A stretch of DNA of 64,000 nucleotides from Fibrobacter sp. GTDB taxonomy: Bacteria; Fibrobacterota; Chitinivibrionia; Chitinivibrionales; Chitinispirillaceae. The notes under the pieces are model-generated. The model did no database searches, was not told the origin of the DNA, and saw only the letters and a list, made by a program, of their open reading frames with translations. This document shows, one piece after another, positions 32,991 through 40,627 of the stretch. Each line of letters starts with the position of its first letter. Position 1 is the stretch's first letter. A program made the position numbers and the translations under genes. The stretch is from assembly GCA_012523595.1 (NCBI GenBank), contig JAAYIG010000137.1:1-64000 (forward strand), in the 5' to 3' direction.

Positions 32991-34553
32991 ATGACCCAAT
33001 CCTCAGGAACGCAAAACAGTTCAGATCAGATGGCGTTATCAAGTGTAAATCAAGAGATTGATAAAAAGATCGGGCTGATTCTGGTTCAGATCGATGGTTT
33101 GTCCAGAAACCAGTTCCACAAGGCTATCAATTCTGCAAAGATGCCCTTTCTGAAAAAACTGCTCAATAGTAAGGGATACGATGTACACTCTTTTTATTCC
33201 GGGCTGCCGTCCAGTACTCCTGCAGTTCAGGCTGAGCTCTTCTATGGTGTTAAATGCGCTGTTCCATCCTTTGGTTTTATCAACCGGGAATCAAAAGAAT
33301 TCTACAACATGCTCTCATCACGGTTTGCCCTGAGGGTCCAGAAAGAGCTTGCGGAAATGGGAAGAGGACTTCTGACCGGTGGCAGTGCCTATTCAGACTG
33401 TTACACCGGGGGGGCCTCCAGGGCCTCTTTCTGTGCAACCAGTATAGGATTTGGATCCTGGTGGCTGCTCAGGCATCCCTTCAATTTTCTTCACTTTGTG
33501 CTTATCCACTGGCTTATGTTCCTCAGAGTAGCTTTGCTTATGATTTTTGAGACCGGGTTGGCAATTTTTGATCTCTTAAAGGGTTTAATCTCAAGGGAGA
33601 ACTTCTTTAGTGAACTGAATTTTGTACCCACACGGGTGGGGATATGTGTTCTTTTAAGGGAACTTGTTGTAACTGCGGTGTCCAGGGATATAAGGCATGG
33701 AGTACCTATAATTCACTGTAATTTTCTGGGATATGATGAGCAGTCGCACAGGCGTGGTCCATCCAGCCGTTTCGCTCACTGGACACTCAAGGGTATAGAT
33801 GATTCGGTAAGGAGAATTTATTGTGCCTCACAGAGATCAAAGAAACTGAATTATTCTGTCTGGATCTACTCAGATCATGGTCAGGAGAGTTCGCTTCCCT
33901 ATTCCAAACTTTTCGGGAAATCGATAGACCAGGCAATCTCTGATGTCATTAATCGCAGAGTTCTGGAGACGACTGATTATCCCAGTTTCAATACCGGAGT
34001 GCAGCTTGAAAGGGGGGCTTTACTTGGAAAATGGTTTTCAAGATGGCTGCCGGTGGGGCGGGCAGATTCTACCCGCAATCCAATCGCTATTACGGCTGTG
34101 GGGCCGATCGGCCATATTTACCTTAGTAAGCAGGATTTGGAGCGAAAAGAGAAAATCGCTCTTGATCTTGTTCTTCAGGCAAATATTCCGGTTGTGATTT
34201 TCTCCGATGCTTCCGGGCAGGTGAAGGCTTACACCAGCGAAGGATGTTTTGTTCTTCCGGAAAATGCAGACAGGGTCCTTGGCAGTGATCATCAGTTCCT
34301 TGCCGAGGCAACTCTCGATCTGCTTGCTCTTCAAAAAAACAGGTATTCAGGTGATCTGATGATTATTGGCTGGAACCGTGGCGATACTCCTCTTACATTT
34401 CCGATGGAGAACGGAGCACATGCGGGTCCGGGCAGAGATGAGACTCATGGGTTTGTGCTGGCTCCTGTGGACTCTCCGATCGATAGCGGAAGTAAAGGTT
34501 ACCTTCGACCGCTTGATTTAAGAGAAACAGCTTTCAGGCATATGGAGTCTTGA
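32991..34553 (+). CDS. Alkaline-phosphatase-superfamily phosphodiesterase-like membrane protein
   Basis: A 520-residue member of the type I phosphodiesterase / nucleotide pyrophosphatase group. Metal-binding residues are visible: D35 in VQIDGLSR, nucleophile T76 in SSTPAVQ, Asp and His in GYDEQSHRRG, DH in YSDHGQE, and His in GAHAGPG. A hydrophobic stretch of about 45 residues (near 160-205) inserted between the motifs may dip into or cross the membrane, suggesting a lipid-linked or envelope substrate. The N-terminus is uncertain; an ATG at 33030 is an alternative. Confidence 0.75.
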   Translation: MTQSSGTQNSSDQMALSSVNQEIDKKIGLILVQIDGLSRNQFHKAINSAKMPFLKKLLNSKGYDVHSFYSGLPSSTPAVQAELFYGVKCAVPSFGFINRESKEFYNMLSSRFALRVQKELAEMGRGLLTGGSAYSDCYTGGASRASFCATSIGFGSWWLLRHPFNFLHFVLIHWLMFLRVALLMIFETGLAIFDLLKGLISRENFFSELNFVPTRVGICVLLRELVVTAVSRDIRHGVPIIHCNFLGYDEQSHRRGPSSRFAHWTLKGIDDSVRRIYCASQRSKKLNYSVWIYSDHGQESSLPYSKLFGKSIDQAISDVINRRVLETTDYPSFNTGVQLERGALLGKWFSRWLPVGRADSTRNPIAITAVGPIGHIYLSKQDLERKEKIALDLVLQANIPVVIFSDASGQVKAYTSEGCFVLPENADRVLGSDHQFLAEATLDLLALQKNRYSGDLMIIGWNRGDTPLTFPMENGAHAGPGRDETHGFVLAPVDSPIDSGSKGYLRPLDLRETAFRHMES

Positions 34554-34679: not shown

Positions 34680-35429
34680 TTACAACTCAATACTGAATCC
34701 CACCATTTTTCCGTTGACTACAGGAGAGATGTTTCTTTTCTGATGTATCAATGGAACTATAAGGCCCGATGCGGTGCCTAGTGCTGCTCCGCCCAGAACG
34801 TCGATAAAGTAGTGGTGTCCGGATGTGACCCGAAGAGTCGCTACGCCTGAGGCCAGGCCGAAATTACAAGCTGCAAACAGTGCTTTCAGAGCAGGTTTAA
34901 CTTTTGATTTCGAAAAGATGTATGAACTGAAAGTCGCTGTCACGAATGCCATAGTCGTATGACCTGAAGGGAAAGAGAAATAGCGGTCTGATTTGCTAAG
35001 CAGCTCAGAGGGGGTATTCCCGGAGGATACATACGGGCGGTATTTTGGAAAGAGTCCTTTTATCAGGTCTTTGGTTCCCCACGCCAGAAGAGCGCTTTCC
35101 AGGTACATCAGACCGATTGTTGCTATCTGGATTCGATCAAACCTGTCGAGCAGCAGGGGGAGAGAGATGACTCCGGCCGCAGTCAAAACAGTAGTGATCC
35201 TGTCTTGTGCTTTGCTGTAGTCAAAAGATGGCCAGCCCCAAAAACAATCCGGAGTAGAGGAAGGAGGTGTAGCATTTCTGATGAAGTAAACAGAAGCCAG
35301 ATTTACACCTGCACCAGTGCTCAGGAGAGTTATATCAGCGGGAAGGTTCAGGCTGAAATTGCTGCTGCCGCCGCAATACAGCACCGATGGAAACCAGATA
35401 ATCGATAGCAATACTAAGACTGGTTTCAT
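34680..35429 (-). CDS. PAP2-family phosphatase
   Basis: A 249-residue membrane phosphatase with a signal peptide or N-terminal helix. The three PAP2 motifs are complete: KGLFPKYRP, FPSGHTT and RVTSGHHYFIDVLGG. It probably removes phosphate from isoprenoid or lipid phosphates on the outer face of the inner membrane. It follows the histidine kinase gene by 6 bp, so it may belong to the lycopene-cyclase-like operon. Confidence 0.88.
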   Translation of the reverse strand: MKPVLVLLSIIWFPSVLYCGGSSNFSLNLPADITLLSTGAGVNLASVYFIRNATPPSSTPDCFWGWPSFDYSKAQDRITTVLTAAGVISLPLLLDRFDRIQIATIGLMYLESALLAWGTKDLIKGLFPKYRPYVSSGNTPSELLSKSDRYFSFPSGHTTMAFVTATFSSYIFSKSKVKPALKALFAACNFGLASGVATLRVTSGHHYFIDVLGGAALGTASGLIVPLIHQKRNISPVVNGKMVGFSIEL

Positions 35430-35435
35430 TCTGTT

Positions 35436-36521
35436 TCAGGTTGTTGACAGCACATTGGCGATATTAAGAAAAATTCTGGTACCATCATCAGGTTGTGAAT
35501 CGATTTTTACATCGATGCCTGACTTGTGGCAGGCTTCCAGCGCACTCACCAGGCCGATACCACGGCCATTTTTCTTGGTGGAAAAACCAAGACTGATTTT
35601 TGATGTATCAAATCCGCAACCATTATCTTCGATTACCAGAGAGTTTCCATCGCGGTAGATTTTTATCCTGCTTGCCCCGGCTTCCTGGGAGTTGGAGAAG
35701 AAAATATAGAGAGCGGAAAGGAAGAGTTGTTCATAGAGCATGGCTGGGGTATTTCTCAGGTGCAGATTGAATTTCATGGAATAATTGACACTGAAATAGG
35801 CGGCCATCCTGTTTACAAGCAGAAAGATATCTGATTTCACCTTGTTTTCTTCTGTGATACCTCCGACAGACGCGATTATCTGTTCGATGGTGCTTGAGAC
35901 GATGGATTCTATTTCTGGATAATCTTTTGAGAGTTTAAGAAGAAGTTGGTTGCTTTGACTTCGGATATTGTGAATCATGATTCTATGATGAACATCTTTG
36001 ACTGCCTGAGCAGCTTTTTCGAGTCTTTTATGCTTCTCCAGTGATTTTTCGAAAGCGTATAAAACAGATAAGCTTAAAACTATACTGAATGAAAAGAGAT
36101 AGAATATTAAAATGTTTTCCTGGAGAAATGTAAAAGAGTAAATGCAGACCAGAAGGGGTATCATTTTGAGGAAAATGCGTAACTTCCGGTCGATGCCCAA
36201 AACATAAGTATTGATTAAAGACTGTATCCAGATAATAAAAATGTAGAAATAGATAAAGGATGGGGGAGTGGTCTGAAAAACTACGGCAGATGCGATTATT
36301 ATATGGTCAGAGTAGGTGCGCAGTTTTATCAATTTTAAGAAATCATATTTAGTGAAAAATGGGATAGTGGTAAGGACCATCACTACAATTGCGAAGACAT
36401 TTAGAATCAAAGCCACCCGTGAAATCTGATCCGTAAGGGCAATTGAGGCAAAAATGATAGTTGTTAGTGCAGATCCCAGATAAAGGAGTGTCAATAATTG
36501 TTCATTTCTCTGAACTGTCAT
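35436..36521 (-). CDS. Membrane sensor histidine kinase
   Basis: A 361-residue kinase with about six N-terminal membrane helices (residues 10-160) and no periplasmic loop of note, so it may sense within the membrane. The phosphoacceptor helix has DVHHRIMIHNIRSQ (about residue 172), similar to HisKA_2 kinases. The ATPase domain shows FSNSQEAG (N box), DNGCGFD (G1) and KKNGRGIGL (G2). It overlaps the response regulator gene by 20 bp and follows two lycopene-cyclase-like genes. Confidence 0.85.
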   Translation of the reverse strand: MTVQRNEQLLTLLYLGSALTTIIFASIALTDQISRVALILNVFAIVVMVLTTIPFFTKYDFLKLIKLRTYSDHIIIASAVVFQTTPPSFIYFYIFIIWIQSLINTYVLGIDRKLRIFLKMIPLLVCIYSFTFLQENILIFYLFSFSIVLSLSVLYAFEKSLEKHKRLEKAAQAVKDVHHRIMIHNIRSQSNQLLLKLSKDYPEIESIVSSTIEQIIASVGGITEENKVKSDIFLLVNRMAAYFSVNYSMKFNLHLRNTPAMLYEQLFLSALYIFFSNSQEAGASRIKIYRDGNSLVIEDNGCGFDTSKISLGFSTKKNGRGIGLVSALEACHKSGIDVKIDSQPDDGTRIFLNIANVLSTT

Positions 36522-36861
36522 AATTCTCTACCAGATCTATGAGTTTTTTAAGTCCTATGGGTTTATTTACCAGGGTTCCACCTTGTTCGATGAACTCTTT
36601 CAGTTCACCGTTGAGAGGAGAACCTGTTATCAGCAGGAATGGAATAGCCTGTGAAATTTTACGAACTTCCCTGAAGAGATCAAGTCCGTTAAGGAAGGGC
36701 ATTACATGGTCTGAGACGATCAGGTCCAGACTGTCTATGTTTTCAAGAAAGCATCGGAGCCCGGACAATCCGTTATCAAAAGCGTGAACACAGTGAGGTC
36801 TGAGGTGTGATTTGTAGATCTCTCTGGTTATATCCTCATCCTCTACAAGTAATATTCTCAC
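36502..36861 (-). CDS. Single-domain response regulator
   Basis: A 119-residue CheY-like receiver without output domain. The acidic pair is in LLVEDED, the phosphoacceptor Asp in LIVSDHVMP (about residue 51), Thr in LLITGSP and Lys in LVNKPIG. It is the likely partner of the overlapping histidine kinase. With no DNA-binding part, it must act by protein contact. It overlaps the upstream lycopene-cyclase-like gene by 4 bp. Confidence 0.92.
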   Translation of the reverse strand: MRILLVEDEDITREIYKSHLRPHCVHAFDNGLSGLRCFLENIDSLDLIVSDHVMPFLNGLDLFREVRKISQAIPFLLITGSPLNGELKEFIEQGGTLVNKPIGLKKLIDLVENYDSSEK

Positions 36862-37718
36862 CTGTTACCTCTGTCAATAAAGAACTTGGTGCAAGCGACA
36901 GTCATGGAGTAGAAAAATATGCCCACTGATATGGCAAACCAGGGTGTGATCTCTATGGGGTTTTTAAAAATCCAGGCCCATTTATGTGTGCCATAATCAA
37001 GGAATACCCTAGAGTGTATATAATTATTATGCTGGTCAAATGCAATATAAACCCACTGTGATGCCCACGCCATCCCTGGCAGATAACTCAACCAGGAAAC
37101 TGCGAAATAGTCCCAAAGTATCTCAATAAGCAGAATTACCGTCATAAATTTTAAATAGTGCCTCACATCCCATCTGTCCCAGATATAGAAAAACAGAGCG
37201 ATTCCCGGGATGGCGCACTGGTAAGAGAGGCTTTTTCCGCAGGGACCTGTGAAGTAACAGAAAAAACTGGCTGCTGTGATATGGAAAACCTGCAGAGATA
37301 TTTTCTGAGCATCACTGGGTTTCTTTTCTGATTTCTTAAGGGCCAGAAAGATAAAATTAAATAGACAGGTACATAAGGGATAAAACAGCCAATCTTCAAG
37401 TGTCAATATAAATTCAATATTGGTAATGCTCCAAGGTAAAAACAGCCATCCCGGAAAACCGGGATCATATTTTTCAATATAAATGCCCCAGAACCATCCC
37501 GAGATAGTGCAAATAGCAAAAACTGGAAGAAAATGTTTCCAGTTCCATCTTGACTTTACTTTCCATGCACCAACAGATGTAATCTGGGCGATTATTAACA
37601 GAGTGACAGGGTAACCCATTCCAATAAATCTTTGCATAGATGTTTTTGGCGGGCCGCAGCATACCTGAGAAAAGAGTTTTTCGTAGAGTGTCTGATAAAA
37701 ATCAAGATTAGACGGCAT
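36858..37718 (-). CDS. Lycopene-cyclase-domain-like membrane protein 2
   Basis: A 286-residue protein with about seven membrane helices. It has the acidic LEDWLFYP motif (near residue 95), like the PxE(E/D)xxF motif of CrtYcd/CarR-type lycopene cyclases, and a second acidic site LIEILWDYFAVSW. It ends with a WAWIFKNPIEITPWF segment shared with its neighbour. The assignment is by motif and topology only. It is the tandem paralogue of the gene upstream (11-bp overlap) and precedes a response regulator. No carotenoid synthesis genes are in the window. Confidence 0.6.
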   Translation of the reverse strand: MPSNLDFYQTLYEKLFSQVCCGPPKTSMQRFIGMGYPVTLLIIAQITSVGAWKVKSRWNWKHFLPVFAICTISGWFWGIYIEKYDPGFPGWLFLPWSITNIEFILTLEDWLFYPLCTCLFNFIFLALKKSEKKPSDAQKISLQVFHITAASFFCYFTGPCGKSLSYQCAIPGIALFFYIWDRWDVRHYLKFMTVILLIEILWDYFAVSWLSYLPGMAWASQWVYIAFDQHNNYIHSRVFLDYGTHKWAWIFKNPIEITPWFAISVGIFFYSMTVACTKFFIDRGNR

Positions 37719-38547
37719 ATTTTCTTCTCACCAGAAAAATGTCGACGCTGTTTATAGCCATGTAGATAAAGGAGGACCCTGTTATTCCATACCAGGGGGT
37801 AATATCCACAGGGTTGTTGAAGATCCAGGCCCATCTGTGCTTTGCAGGGTCCAGGAAAACACTGGAGAAATGGGCAATTCCATTCTGGTCCCACGTGATA
37901 TAGATCCATCCCGGGGCCCAGGATTTATAATGATAGATCCAGGAAACAGCGAAGCAGTCCCATAAAATCTCAAAAAATACCATGGTTCCAATGAACAGGA
38001 GCATGTGCCTGCAGTTTATTTTATGCCAGGCGTAAATCATCAGGACCATTGATGGGACAGCATACATCAGTGTTTCGAGCTTTCCGCAGATTCCGCCGAA
38101 GGAAAGCATTAAAAGTGATGCTGTCCACATGAAGATAAAGAATGTGATTTTGAGCCCCTGCGCCCATTTAAAATCGGTTGTTTCCGTGTCCCCCTCAGTG
38201 AGTCTGTAAACACCATAGAAGAAGATGGTGAGGAAGATGTAAAAAAGGATATCCTCAACGCACCAGAATCCAATCCATCCCGACGAGCTCCAGGGAGGTA
38301 CAACCCACCCTGGAAATTCCGGGTCTATTTTGTAAATTATAGCACCCAGGAGCAGGCCTGAAGCCGCAGATGGGATGCAGATATACCAGAATGCATGCCA
38401 TCTCCATTTCTTTCTCTTTGTCAGTACAATCATCAGTATAATTGAAACAATCAGCACAATTATATCTGATATCAGAAAATTACGGGCGATTATCTTCTCA
38501 AACAGTGTTGAAGGAAGACCATCTTTCAGATAATAACTGAAATTCAT
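37708..38547 (-). CDS. Lycopene-cyclase-domain-like membrane protein 1
   Basis: A 279-residue membrane protein with about seven helices, clearly related to the next gene. Shared features are FPGW..PPWS, the acidic CVEDILFY site, FFEILWDCFAVSW and WAWIFNNPVDITPWYG. The pattern resembles bacterial and archaeal lycopene cyclase domains. Other roles, such as non-catalytic sensing of a membrane isoprenoid, are possible. A GAGAGGAAAG ribosome-binding site is present. Confidence 0.6.
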   Translation of the reverse strand: MNFSYYLKDGLPSTLFEKIIARNFLISDIIVLIVSIILMIVLTKRKKWRWHAFWYICIPSAASGLLLGAIIYKIDPEFPGWVVPPWSSSGWIGFWCVEDILFYIFLTIFFYGVYRLTEGDTETTDFKWAQGLKITFFIFMWTASLLMLSFGGICGKLETLMYAVPSMVLMIYAWHKINCRHMLLFIGTMVFFEILWDCFAVSWIYHYKSWAPGWIYITWDQNGIAHFSSVFLDPAKHRWAWIFNNPVDITPWYGITGSSFIYMAINSVDIFLVRRKYAV

Positions 38548-38555
38548 CTTTCCTC

Positions 38556-39050
38556 TCAGGTGAATATGAATTTAGAGAAGAACCAAACGAAGCAGCCTAC
38601 TACTGAGTAGCCCAGAAAGACCTGAAGAGGTATTCCCAGAATTACTGCTTTAGGGCGGAATGGCTTGAATAACCCCAGGTAATATGAATCGTAGTTATAA
38701 GTCCAGTAGCCCAGGGAGTGAAAAGTTATTTCCATCAGATTGCCTGCTATGATTGCTGAGATGATGTAAGACAGGAAACTTCCTCCCATTTTTGATGCGG
38801 CGATCATGGTAAGCGCAAAAATGAGGTTCCATCCAAGAGGAAAGAGATAGTTTACTTCGGTATTTTTTATACAGCGGCTGGTGACCAGGTCGGGATGGTA
38901 CTTGAACATGCCGTGCATTGTTGATTCATAAACAAACGCGAAACAGTAGTTGATCAGTGCAACTTTCCACCAGGATGATGGAAAGAGATGATAGAGGAGG
39001 AAAAGACTGAGAATTCCCTGACCTGTAATTGACCACTCTTTTTTAGTCAT
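38556..39050 (-). CDS. Small polytopic membrane protein heading the lycopene-cyclase-like operon
   Basis: A 164-residue protein with about four helices. The C-terminal part (YWTYNYDSYYLG, then AVILGIPLQVFLGYSVVG) resembles half of a lycopene-cyclase-like repeat, but without the acidic pair, so it may be a distant or inactive relative. Family not recognised. An AGGAGT site precedes the ATG; it lies 8 bp before the next gene in the operon. Confidence 0.6.
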   Translation of the reverse strand: MTKKEWSITGQGILSLFLLYHLFPSSWWKVALINYCFAFVYESTMHGMFKYHPDLVTSRCIKNTEVNYLFPLGWNLIFALTMIAASKMGGSFLSYIISAIIAGNLMEITFHSLGYWTYNYDSYYLGLFKPFRPKAVILGIPLQVFLGYSVVGCFVWFFSKFIFT

Positions 39051-39463: not shown

Positions 39464-40627
39464 ATGCAGCAGAAAACACCTGTTCGCATTGGGATCACGG
39501 GCTCTTACGGAGGGATGAATTTAGGGGATGAGGGAATACTGCACAGCATGGTCACACAACTGCGGAATTCCCTGAGAGCGGAGATCACGGTTTTTACCCG
39601 CTGTTGTGAGGATTCCCTGAGTCGCCATCCGATAGATCATGCGGTAAAATCCGTCAACATGTCCCTGCCTGAGATTTTGCCTGTGATTGAGAGGCTTGAT
39701 GCGCTGGTAGTGGGGGGAGGAGGAATTCTCTATGATGCTCACGCCAGGCTTCATCTTCGGGAAGCATCATTGGCCCTTGAAAAAGGTGTACCGGTGATGG
39801 TGTATGCAGTTGGGGCCGGGCCTCTGAAAGATTCATTGGTTGCCGGGTATGTTCGTGATGTTTTAAGTGCTGTTGATCGTCTGACTGTCAGAGATCGCCA
39901 TTCCTGCCAGATTCTGGAGGAGATTGGGCTGAGACGTGAAATGCTAATCACTGCAGATCCGGCGCTTCTTCTCAAGCCGGAAACTGTGGATAAAACAGTG
40001 CTGCGCCGGGAGGGGCTTTCAGGGAAAGGGAGACGAGTTGGAATCTCAGTAAGAGAAGCGGGAGTTGCCGCACCGGATATCCAGGAGAGTCACTATCATG
40101 CCCTGCTTGCCAATGCCGCGGATTTCATGATTGAACGTTTTGATGCGGATATCATCTTTATCCCCATGGAACCGGGTGTCTTTGATGTTCAGCAGGCACA
40201 TGCGGTAATCTCCAGGATGCTTCGTCCCCAGAGAGCATCGGTGCTGCGGGGAAACTACAATTCAAATCAACTTCTCTATATTATCAGCCATCTGGATTTC
40301 GCAGTGGGGATGAGGCTTCATTTTCTGATCTTTGCCGCCAGAATGGGAGTACCTTTTGTAGCTCTCCCTTATTCTTCGAAAGTGATGGGTTTTCTTGAGG
40401 AACTGGATATAGAGATGCCTCCCATTAATCTGGTCAATGAGGGGCGTCTTATGGCCTATATTGACAGAGCCTGGGATAGCAGAGAGGAGTTGAAGAGAAA
40501 GATAAATACCATGCTTCCCAGGCTCCAGAGCCGTGCTTCAGAGAATAATGGTGTATTGATAGATTTGCTTAAACAGAGAAAGATTCAAGACAAGAGGGAA
40601 CAAAATGCCTCCTCTGAGCCGTCCTGA
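39464..40627 (+). CDS. csaB: Polysaccharide pyruvyltransferase family protein (CsaB-like)
   Basis: A 387-residue GT-B-like enzyme of the CsaB/WcaK family, which adds pyruvate ketals to cell-wall or capsule sugars. Typical parts are GSYGGMNLGDEGIL at the start, GGGGILYD, GAGPL and a C-terminal RLHFLIFAARMGVPFVALPYSSKV. It is expressed from a sigma-54 promoter and overlaps the downstream FAD gene by 23 bp. The true acceptor is unknown. The gene symbol is by family only. Confidence 0.8.
   Translation: MQQKTPVRIGITGSYGGMNLGDEGILHSMVTQLRNSLRAEITVFTRCCEDSLSRHPIDHAVKSVNMSLPEILPVIERLDALVVGGGGILYDAHARLHLREASLALEKGVPVMVYAVGAGPLKDSLVAGYVRDVLSAVDRLTVRDRHSCQILEEIGLRREMLITADPALLLKPETVDKTVLRREGLSGKGRRVGISVREAGVAAPDIQESHYHALLANAADFMIERFDADIIFIPMEPGVFDVQQAHAVISRMLRPQRASVLRGNYNSNQLLYIISHLDFAVGMRLHFLIFAARMGVPFVALPYSSKVMGFLEELDIEMPPINLVNEGRLMAYIDRAWDSREELKRKINTMLPRLQSRASENNGVLIDLLKQRKIQDKREQNASSEPS

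Follow-up and report, generated by a model that had tools for sequence, protein, structure and literature searches.

Two tandem membrane proteins, P1 and P2, encoded in the window (the whole stretch of 64,000 nucleotides that was analysed) are, as judged from profile comparisons, remote members of the CarR superfamily and not lycopene cyclases. They are encoded in a compact operon together with a membrane histidine kinase, a stand-alone receiver and a PAP2-type lipid phosphatase, and this operon is best read as a CarR-superfamily module that is independent of carotenoids and coupled to a kinase.

Six complete ORFs were found tightly packed on the minus strand between positions 34680 and 39050 (Table 1). 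Calculated from the coordinates, successive genes were separated by 8 bp (S164/P1), overlapped by 11 bp (P1/P2), 4 bp (P2/receiver) and 20 bp (receiver/kinase), and were separated again by 6 bp (kinase/PAP2). The gene number, strand and order, as well as the overlaps of 4, 11 and 20 bp, agreed with the original prediction for this DNA. Both flanking genes were on the plus strand: one, 520 aa and phosphodiesterase-like, ended at 34553, and the other, for a CsaB-like pyruvyl transferase, started at 39464. A defence-system reading of the operon was rejected. The organism probably belongs to Fibrobacterota, in or near the class Chitinispirillia, as suggested by the size of its phylum (168 species), by the polysaccharide genes and by the TIGR02147 'Fsuc_second' family in kin genomes.

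Table 1. Genes of the operon, listed in order of transcription.
Feature	Position	Strand	Basis
164-aa membrane protein (S164), operon gene 1	38556..39050	-	ORF
P1, 279 aa, seven-helix CarR-like membrane protein	37708..38547	-	VEDILFY; LWD and NPVDITPW in second half; remote homology
P2, 286 aa, seven-helix paralogue of P1	36858..37718	-	LEDWLFY, LWD, NPIEITPW
Stand-alone receiver, 119 aa, GTG start	36502..36861	-	PF00072, 45.3 bits; residues checked
Membrane histidine kinase, 361 aa	35436..36521	-	PF02518, 31.7 bits; intact N and G boxes
PAP2-type lipid phosphatase, 249 aa	34680..35429	-	PF01569, 71.9 bits; catalytic motifs; hydrophobic N-terminal segment

The two-component pair and the PAP2 phosphatase that had been proposed were borne out by Pfam domains above cut-off with intact key residues. 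In the receiver, the phosphorylation residues (ED pairs 7 and 9, D51, T79 and K100) were all present, and the PF00072 domain alone filled the protein, with no output or DNA-binding domain found by Pfam. In the kinase, the ATPase domain exceeded the Pfam cut-off, HisKA was not recognised by Pfam, and His 178/179 or His 184 was chosen by inspection as the candidate phospho-accepting residue. The kinase, predicted to have six helices, was called as having about six with short loops, although a crude hydropathy count gave five. Its N-terminal membrane region had no detectable relative in 168 genomes of the phylum, and sequence searches with the kinase against Pfam, NCBIfam, PADLOC and PDB yielded no useful family. 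The PAP2 domain scored far above the Pfam cut-off, and its catalytic triad was intact (K-x6-RP, PSGH and R-x5-H-x3-D).

P1 and P2 were tandem paralogues with 34% identity, the conserved stretches including ED-x-LFY, LWD and NP-[IV][DE]-ITPW. Domain 1 of both carried ED-x-LFY without the proline of PxE(E/D), and this acidic motif was also retained in domain 1 of their only relative outside the phylum, a Methylococcales protein described below. Domain 2 carried NP[IV][ED]ITPW, and its acidic pair was reduced. Seven membrane helices, as proposed earlier, were present in the AF2 models of both proteins, although the crude hydropathy count was lower (six in P1 and five in P2). A rhodopsin-like reading was rejected by inspection, since no conserved lysine was found in the last helix. 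Neither protein matched the lycopene cyclase/CarR models (PF18916/TIGR03462) in Pfam or NCBIfam at E<=1, and PADLOC and PDB sequence searches gave no useful family. A fold search with the P2 model (pLDDT 62.7) against PDB and viral models returned nothing below E 0.7, and the P1 model was too poor for such a search. The lycopene-cyclase label originally attached to P1 and P2 therefore failed at the family level, but it survived as remote homology to the CarR superfamily in profile-profile comparisons.

A PF18916 search of the genome to which the window belongs returned one sub-threshold place, on another contig (C139), where a 726-aa hybrid histidine kinase (PAS, HisKA, ATPase and receiver domains) was followed by a 347-aa membrane protein, hereafter Y, and by proteins of 127 and 101 aa. 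Y contained LWD and GDVLFY, with GD where the others have ED or EE. The two small proteins kept PxEE (SPVEEYLFW in the 127-aa and IPVEEMMLY in the 101-aa protein) and matched TIGR03462 (CarR) with E values of 8e-4 and 5e-5, respectively, under the curated cut-off. Downstream of this locus, genes of 138, 143 and 297 aa (L004:6834-8570) appeared by inspection to be envelope-stress/YqjE-like, and they possibly share its transcription unit. In another genus (G006), kinase, Y and two CarR proteins were encoded in the same order as on C139. In a further genus (G012), a kinase orthologous to the C139 kinase (35-36% identical) was convergent to a pair consisting of a Y-family gene and a homologue of S164. 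This homologue was 35% identical to S164 and lay directly beside the Y-family gene and the hybrid kinase; since it pairs with Y, the window operon is tied to the Y operon. S164 itself had no Pfam or NCBIfam match. Small CarR proteins were present in two of the three Y loci (C139, G006 and G012).

For profile-profile comparison, a CarR profile was built from 18 domains of the phylum. Domain 1 of P1/P2 aligned to it with a score of 29.5 (hhalign, 52-55%, 95 columns in register), and domain 1 of P1/P2 combined with that of Y reached 34.1 over 105 columns (78% in one direction and 50% in the other). Controls, comprising 121 windows from other multi-helix proteins, had a mean score of 12.2 (sd 2.8); the highest of them, at 22.9, was, judging by where it lies in L004, part of Y, which left 18.0 as the maximum among real controls. 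The probability of real controls was at most 3.2%, and no reversed sequence scored above 13.3. For the second half of Y, the score was 22-28 over 68-70 columns. The CarR profile did not directly detect domain 2 of P1/P2, which was reachable only through Y, to which P1/P2 and the Methylococcales relative together aligned over 207 columns with a probability of 94-95%. The single sequences of domain 1 from P1 and from the Methylococcales protein scored slightly above the controls. S164 and a 200-aa membrane protein of other loci (see below) were suspected of being half-CarR proteins; in the same comparisons, S164 gave no more than a hint of a CarR relation.

P1 and P2 had no convincing relative in any other of the 168 genomes of the phylum. 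The sole other relative was the protein from a Methylococcales MAG, 40% identical to P2, which was encoded on a 3.1-kb contig with no kinase beside it, in a genome that has SQS_PSY (phytoene/squalene synthase). No further relatives turned up in IMG/VR, among plasmids or in 300 other genomes of the same order; all genome contigs were scanned for P1/P2 with two short peptide patterns only, and the rarity is partly a limit of this search. On the Methylococcales contig, an ORF at L006:538-1521 appeared by inspection to run from a TonB-receptor plug domain into a Vsr-endonuclease-like end. The contig is possibly misassembled, and the origin of the P2 relative is therefore uncertain. Weak matches to P1/P2 in G092 and G125, and PF18916 matches in G160 and G069, were dropped as chance-like.

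No SQS_PSY match was found at E<=0.01 in the genome assembly of the window, and control genomes were positive. The claim that phytoene genes are missing, made earlier for the surroundings of the operon, was thus upheld genome-wide for phytoene synthase, which supports a lack of carotenoid synthesis. SQS_PSY was likewise absent from the other kinase-linked genomes covered by the search (G006, G027 and G036) and from G003, G010, G024, G033 and G043. In G052 and G080, SQS_PSY lay on the same contig as a fused CarR cyclase, about 5 kb from it. The CarR family thus falls into two sets, one of carotenoid members and one found in genomes lacking crtB.

Kinase linkage was also found beyond the Y loci. 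In two genomes of another family in the same order (G027 and G036), one tight operon held a pair of CarR genes together with the genes for a 200-aa membrane protein and for a different hybrid kinase; in G033, two CarR proteins and the 200-aa protein were present before the contig ended. The 200-aa protein, encoded between the CarR pair and the kinase (L026:2834-3439 and L025:5968-6570), contained 'VEYLTEAYWDYN' and 'YPLEG' stretches and is perhaps another diverged CarR relative. The receiver had no attached output or DNA-binding domain in any kinase-linked locus, and PAP2 was found in the window operon only. The window kinase and the other CarR-linked kinases had only the core ATPase region in common, with no close kinship, so it seems that the coupling to a kinase evolved, or was replaced, on more than one occasion. 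As for conservation of gene order, the exact order of the window was unique among the 168 genomes, but CarR-like proteins were repeatedly linked, in several arrangements, to a kinase with receiver.

The 4.1-Mb genome held 41 ATPase-domain matches, and any given gene would by chance have a kinase within about 4 kb in roughly 8% of cases, a rough, post hoc estimate that leaves aside the CarR loci with no kinase (the UbiA-linked loci G006:C3, G003 and G010, and also G043). Both CarR loci of this genome have a kinase nearby. In the UbiA-linked loci, a UbiA prenyltransferase gene adjoined the CarR-domain gene (L022:6131-7890 in G006:C3, L023:2332-3916 in G003 and L024:751-2333 in G010), accompanied in G003 and G010 by an ABC transporter. 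These pairs resemble the pairing of UbiA and cyclase in C50 carotenoid synthesis, although such a role seems unlikely without phytoene synthase. In G043 (C533, L033:2-1138), a 114-aa CarR-domain protein was followed by a 263-aa CarR-like protein, and no kinase was noticed among the adjacent ORFs. In the openly accessible literature that was searched, a link between CarR proteins and kinases was nowhere described.

The recurring partnership of CarR-like proteins and kinases suggests an undescribed module for sensing or modifying a membrane lipid. P1 and P2 would be strongly diverged two-domain CarR members of the CrtYcd type, no longer engaged in carotenoid synthesis, and together with S164 they would presumably associate into a membrane unit. 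This unit may bind, and possibly cyclise or isomerise, a non-carotenoid membrane isoprenoid, for instance a polyprenyl phosphate or a quinone, which PAP2 may supply or consume; that the ligand or substrate belongs to the membrane isoprenoids we infer from the homology and the PAP2 neighbour only. The membrane-embedded kinase and its receiver would then read the state of the CarR unit or its ligand, the signal presumably passing from unit to kinase. Direct contact between a CarR subunit and the kinase is the most economical arrangement, because the receivers have no DNA-binding domain and the kinase and the CarR-like proteins are all membrane proteins. Retained catalysis is doubtful, since the motif reads GD in Y and has degenerated in the second domains. 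Against this explanation stand the missed family thresholds, the second domain of P1/P2 that escaped direct recognition, the kinase-less Methylococcales relative in a genome with SQS_PSY, the occurrence of PAP2 in the window operon only, the distance of the window kinase from the other CarR-linked kinases, the post hoc nature of the chance estimate and the weak structure models, which matched nothing. Taken as a whole, the proposal of diverged, post-carotenoid CarR proteins forming a membrane isoprenoid unit that is read by a kinase is put forward tentatively, with somewhat less than even confidence.

The signal may instead run in the opposite direction, with the CarR-like isoprenoid enzymes as the output, and kinase and receiver sensing membrane stress and switching the enzymes on through receiver binding or phosphorelay. 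A direct protein target is plausible for receivers that lack a DNA-binding domain in every locus. P1, P2 and the Methylococcales protein retain the acidic motif, the small CarR proteins retain PxEE, and downstream of the C139 locus lie several small genes that are probably related to the envelope. That the motif is degenerate in both Y and domain 2, however, speaks against enzymes as the output, as does the promoter scan, which gave no signal above chance, and we regard this direction as unlikely, if deserving serious weight.

It is improbable that P1 and P2 belong to an unrelated seven-helix family, CarR-like merely through membrane composition and a short acidic motif, in an operon that is an ordinary co-transcribed set. 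Such a reading would accommodate the rare distribution of P1/P2, the want of any curated family or fold match and the single domain 1 sequences scoring barely over the controls. It is countered by the family profile of domain 1, with its 95 columns in register far above controls and reversed sequences, by kinship to Y, whose second half scores independently and whose neighbours resemble CarR, and by the S164 homologue beside Y in G012. Least credible, to the point of being very improbable, is that the CarR-like proteins act on environmental carotenoids or apocarotenoids and give the kinase a pigment-based sensor: C40/C50 carotenoids are indeed the substrates of the CarR-superfamily proteins of known function, of the CrtYcd type (PMC2889829), and PxEE is retained in the small CarR proteins, but the genome search found no phytoene synthase, no carotenoid uptake gene is known here, and Chitinispirillum, the probable named relative, is an obligate anaerobe described without mention of carotenoids (PMC4814513).

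If the preferred reading of a kinase-coupled CarR module holds, the CarR fold has a second role, and such relatives offer a concrete starting point for learning how membrane isoprenoids are sensed or adjusted in bacteria. The CarR/CrtYcd cyclases in a survey of carotenoid synthesis (PMC2889829) were all carotenoid enzymes, from which relatives tied to kinases in crtB-less genomes would differ. The annotation 'lycopene cyclase domain' in such genomes should then not be taken as evidence of carotenoids. The wider claim, that a lycopene-cyclase fold was recruited into signalling without carotenoids, with CarR subunits that bind or modify a membrane isoprenoid and kinases whose receivers lack DNA-binding output forming a new class of membrane-lipid sensing in several arrangements, is possible but rather doubtful.

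Compared with known systems, the window PAP2 resembles the PgpB/undecaprenyl-diphosphatase type in its complete catalytic triad, but its scores fall far short of the NCBIfam cut-offs for the named equivalogs. DesK is a kinase that has several membrane helices and lacks a large extracellular domain. The window kinase resembles the DesK type in several membrane helices, short loops and the core kinase domain, and differs from it in the unrecognised HisKA, a membrane region for which no relatives were detected in the phylum and a receiver without output. The window operon and the Y loci have in common a P1/P2 homologue, a clustered kinase and receiver, and, in G012, an S164 homologue, whereas the Y loci have a 7TM-PAS hybrid kinase with fused receiver that is not orthologous to the window kinase, and no PAP2. 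From the CrtYcd, CrtYc+CrtYd and CarR cyclases (PF18916, TIGR03462), P1 and P2 differ in scoring below the family thresholds, in a long tryptophan-rich insertion in the second half, in a genome where no crtB was detected, and in an operon with kinase, receiver and PAP2. They are alike in their two three-helix units, in the acidic motif and aromatics before the third helix ([E/D]D-x-LFY versus PxEE-x-LFF), in a conserved WD ending a preceding helix and in the profile match of domain 1.
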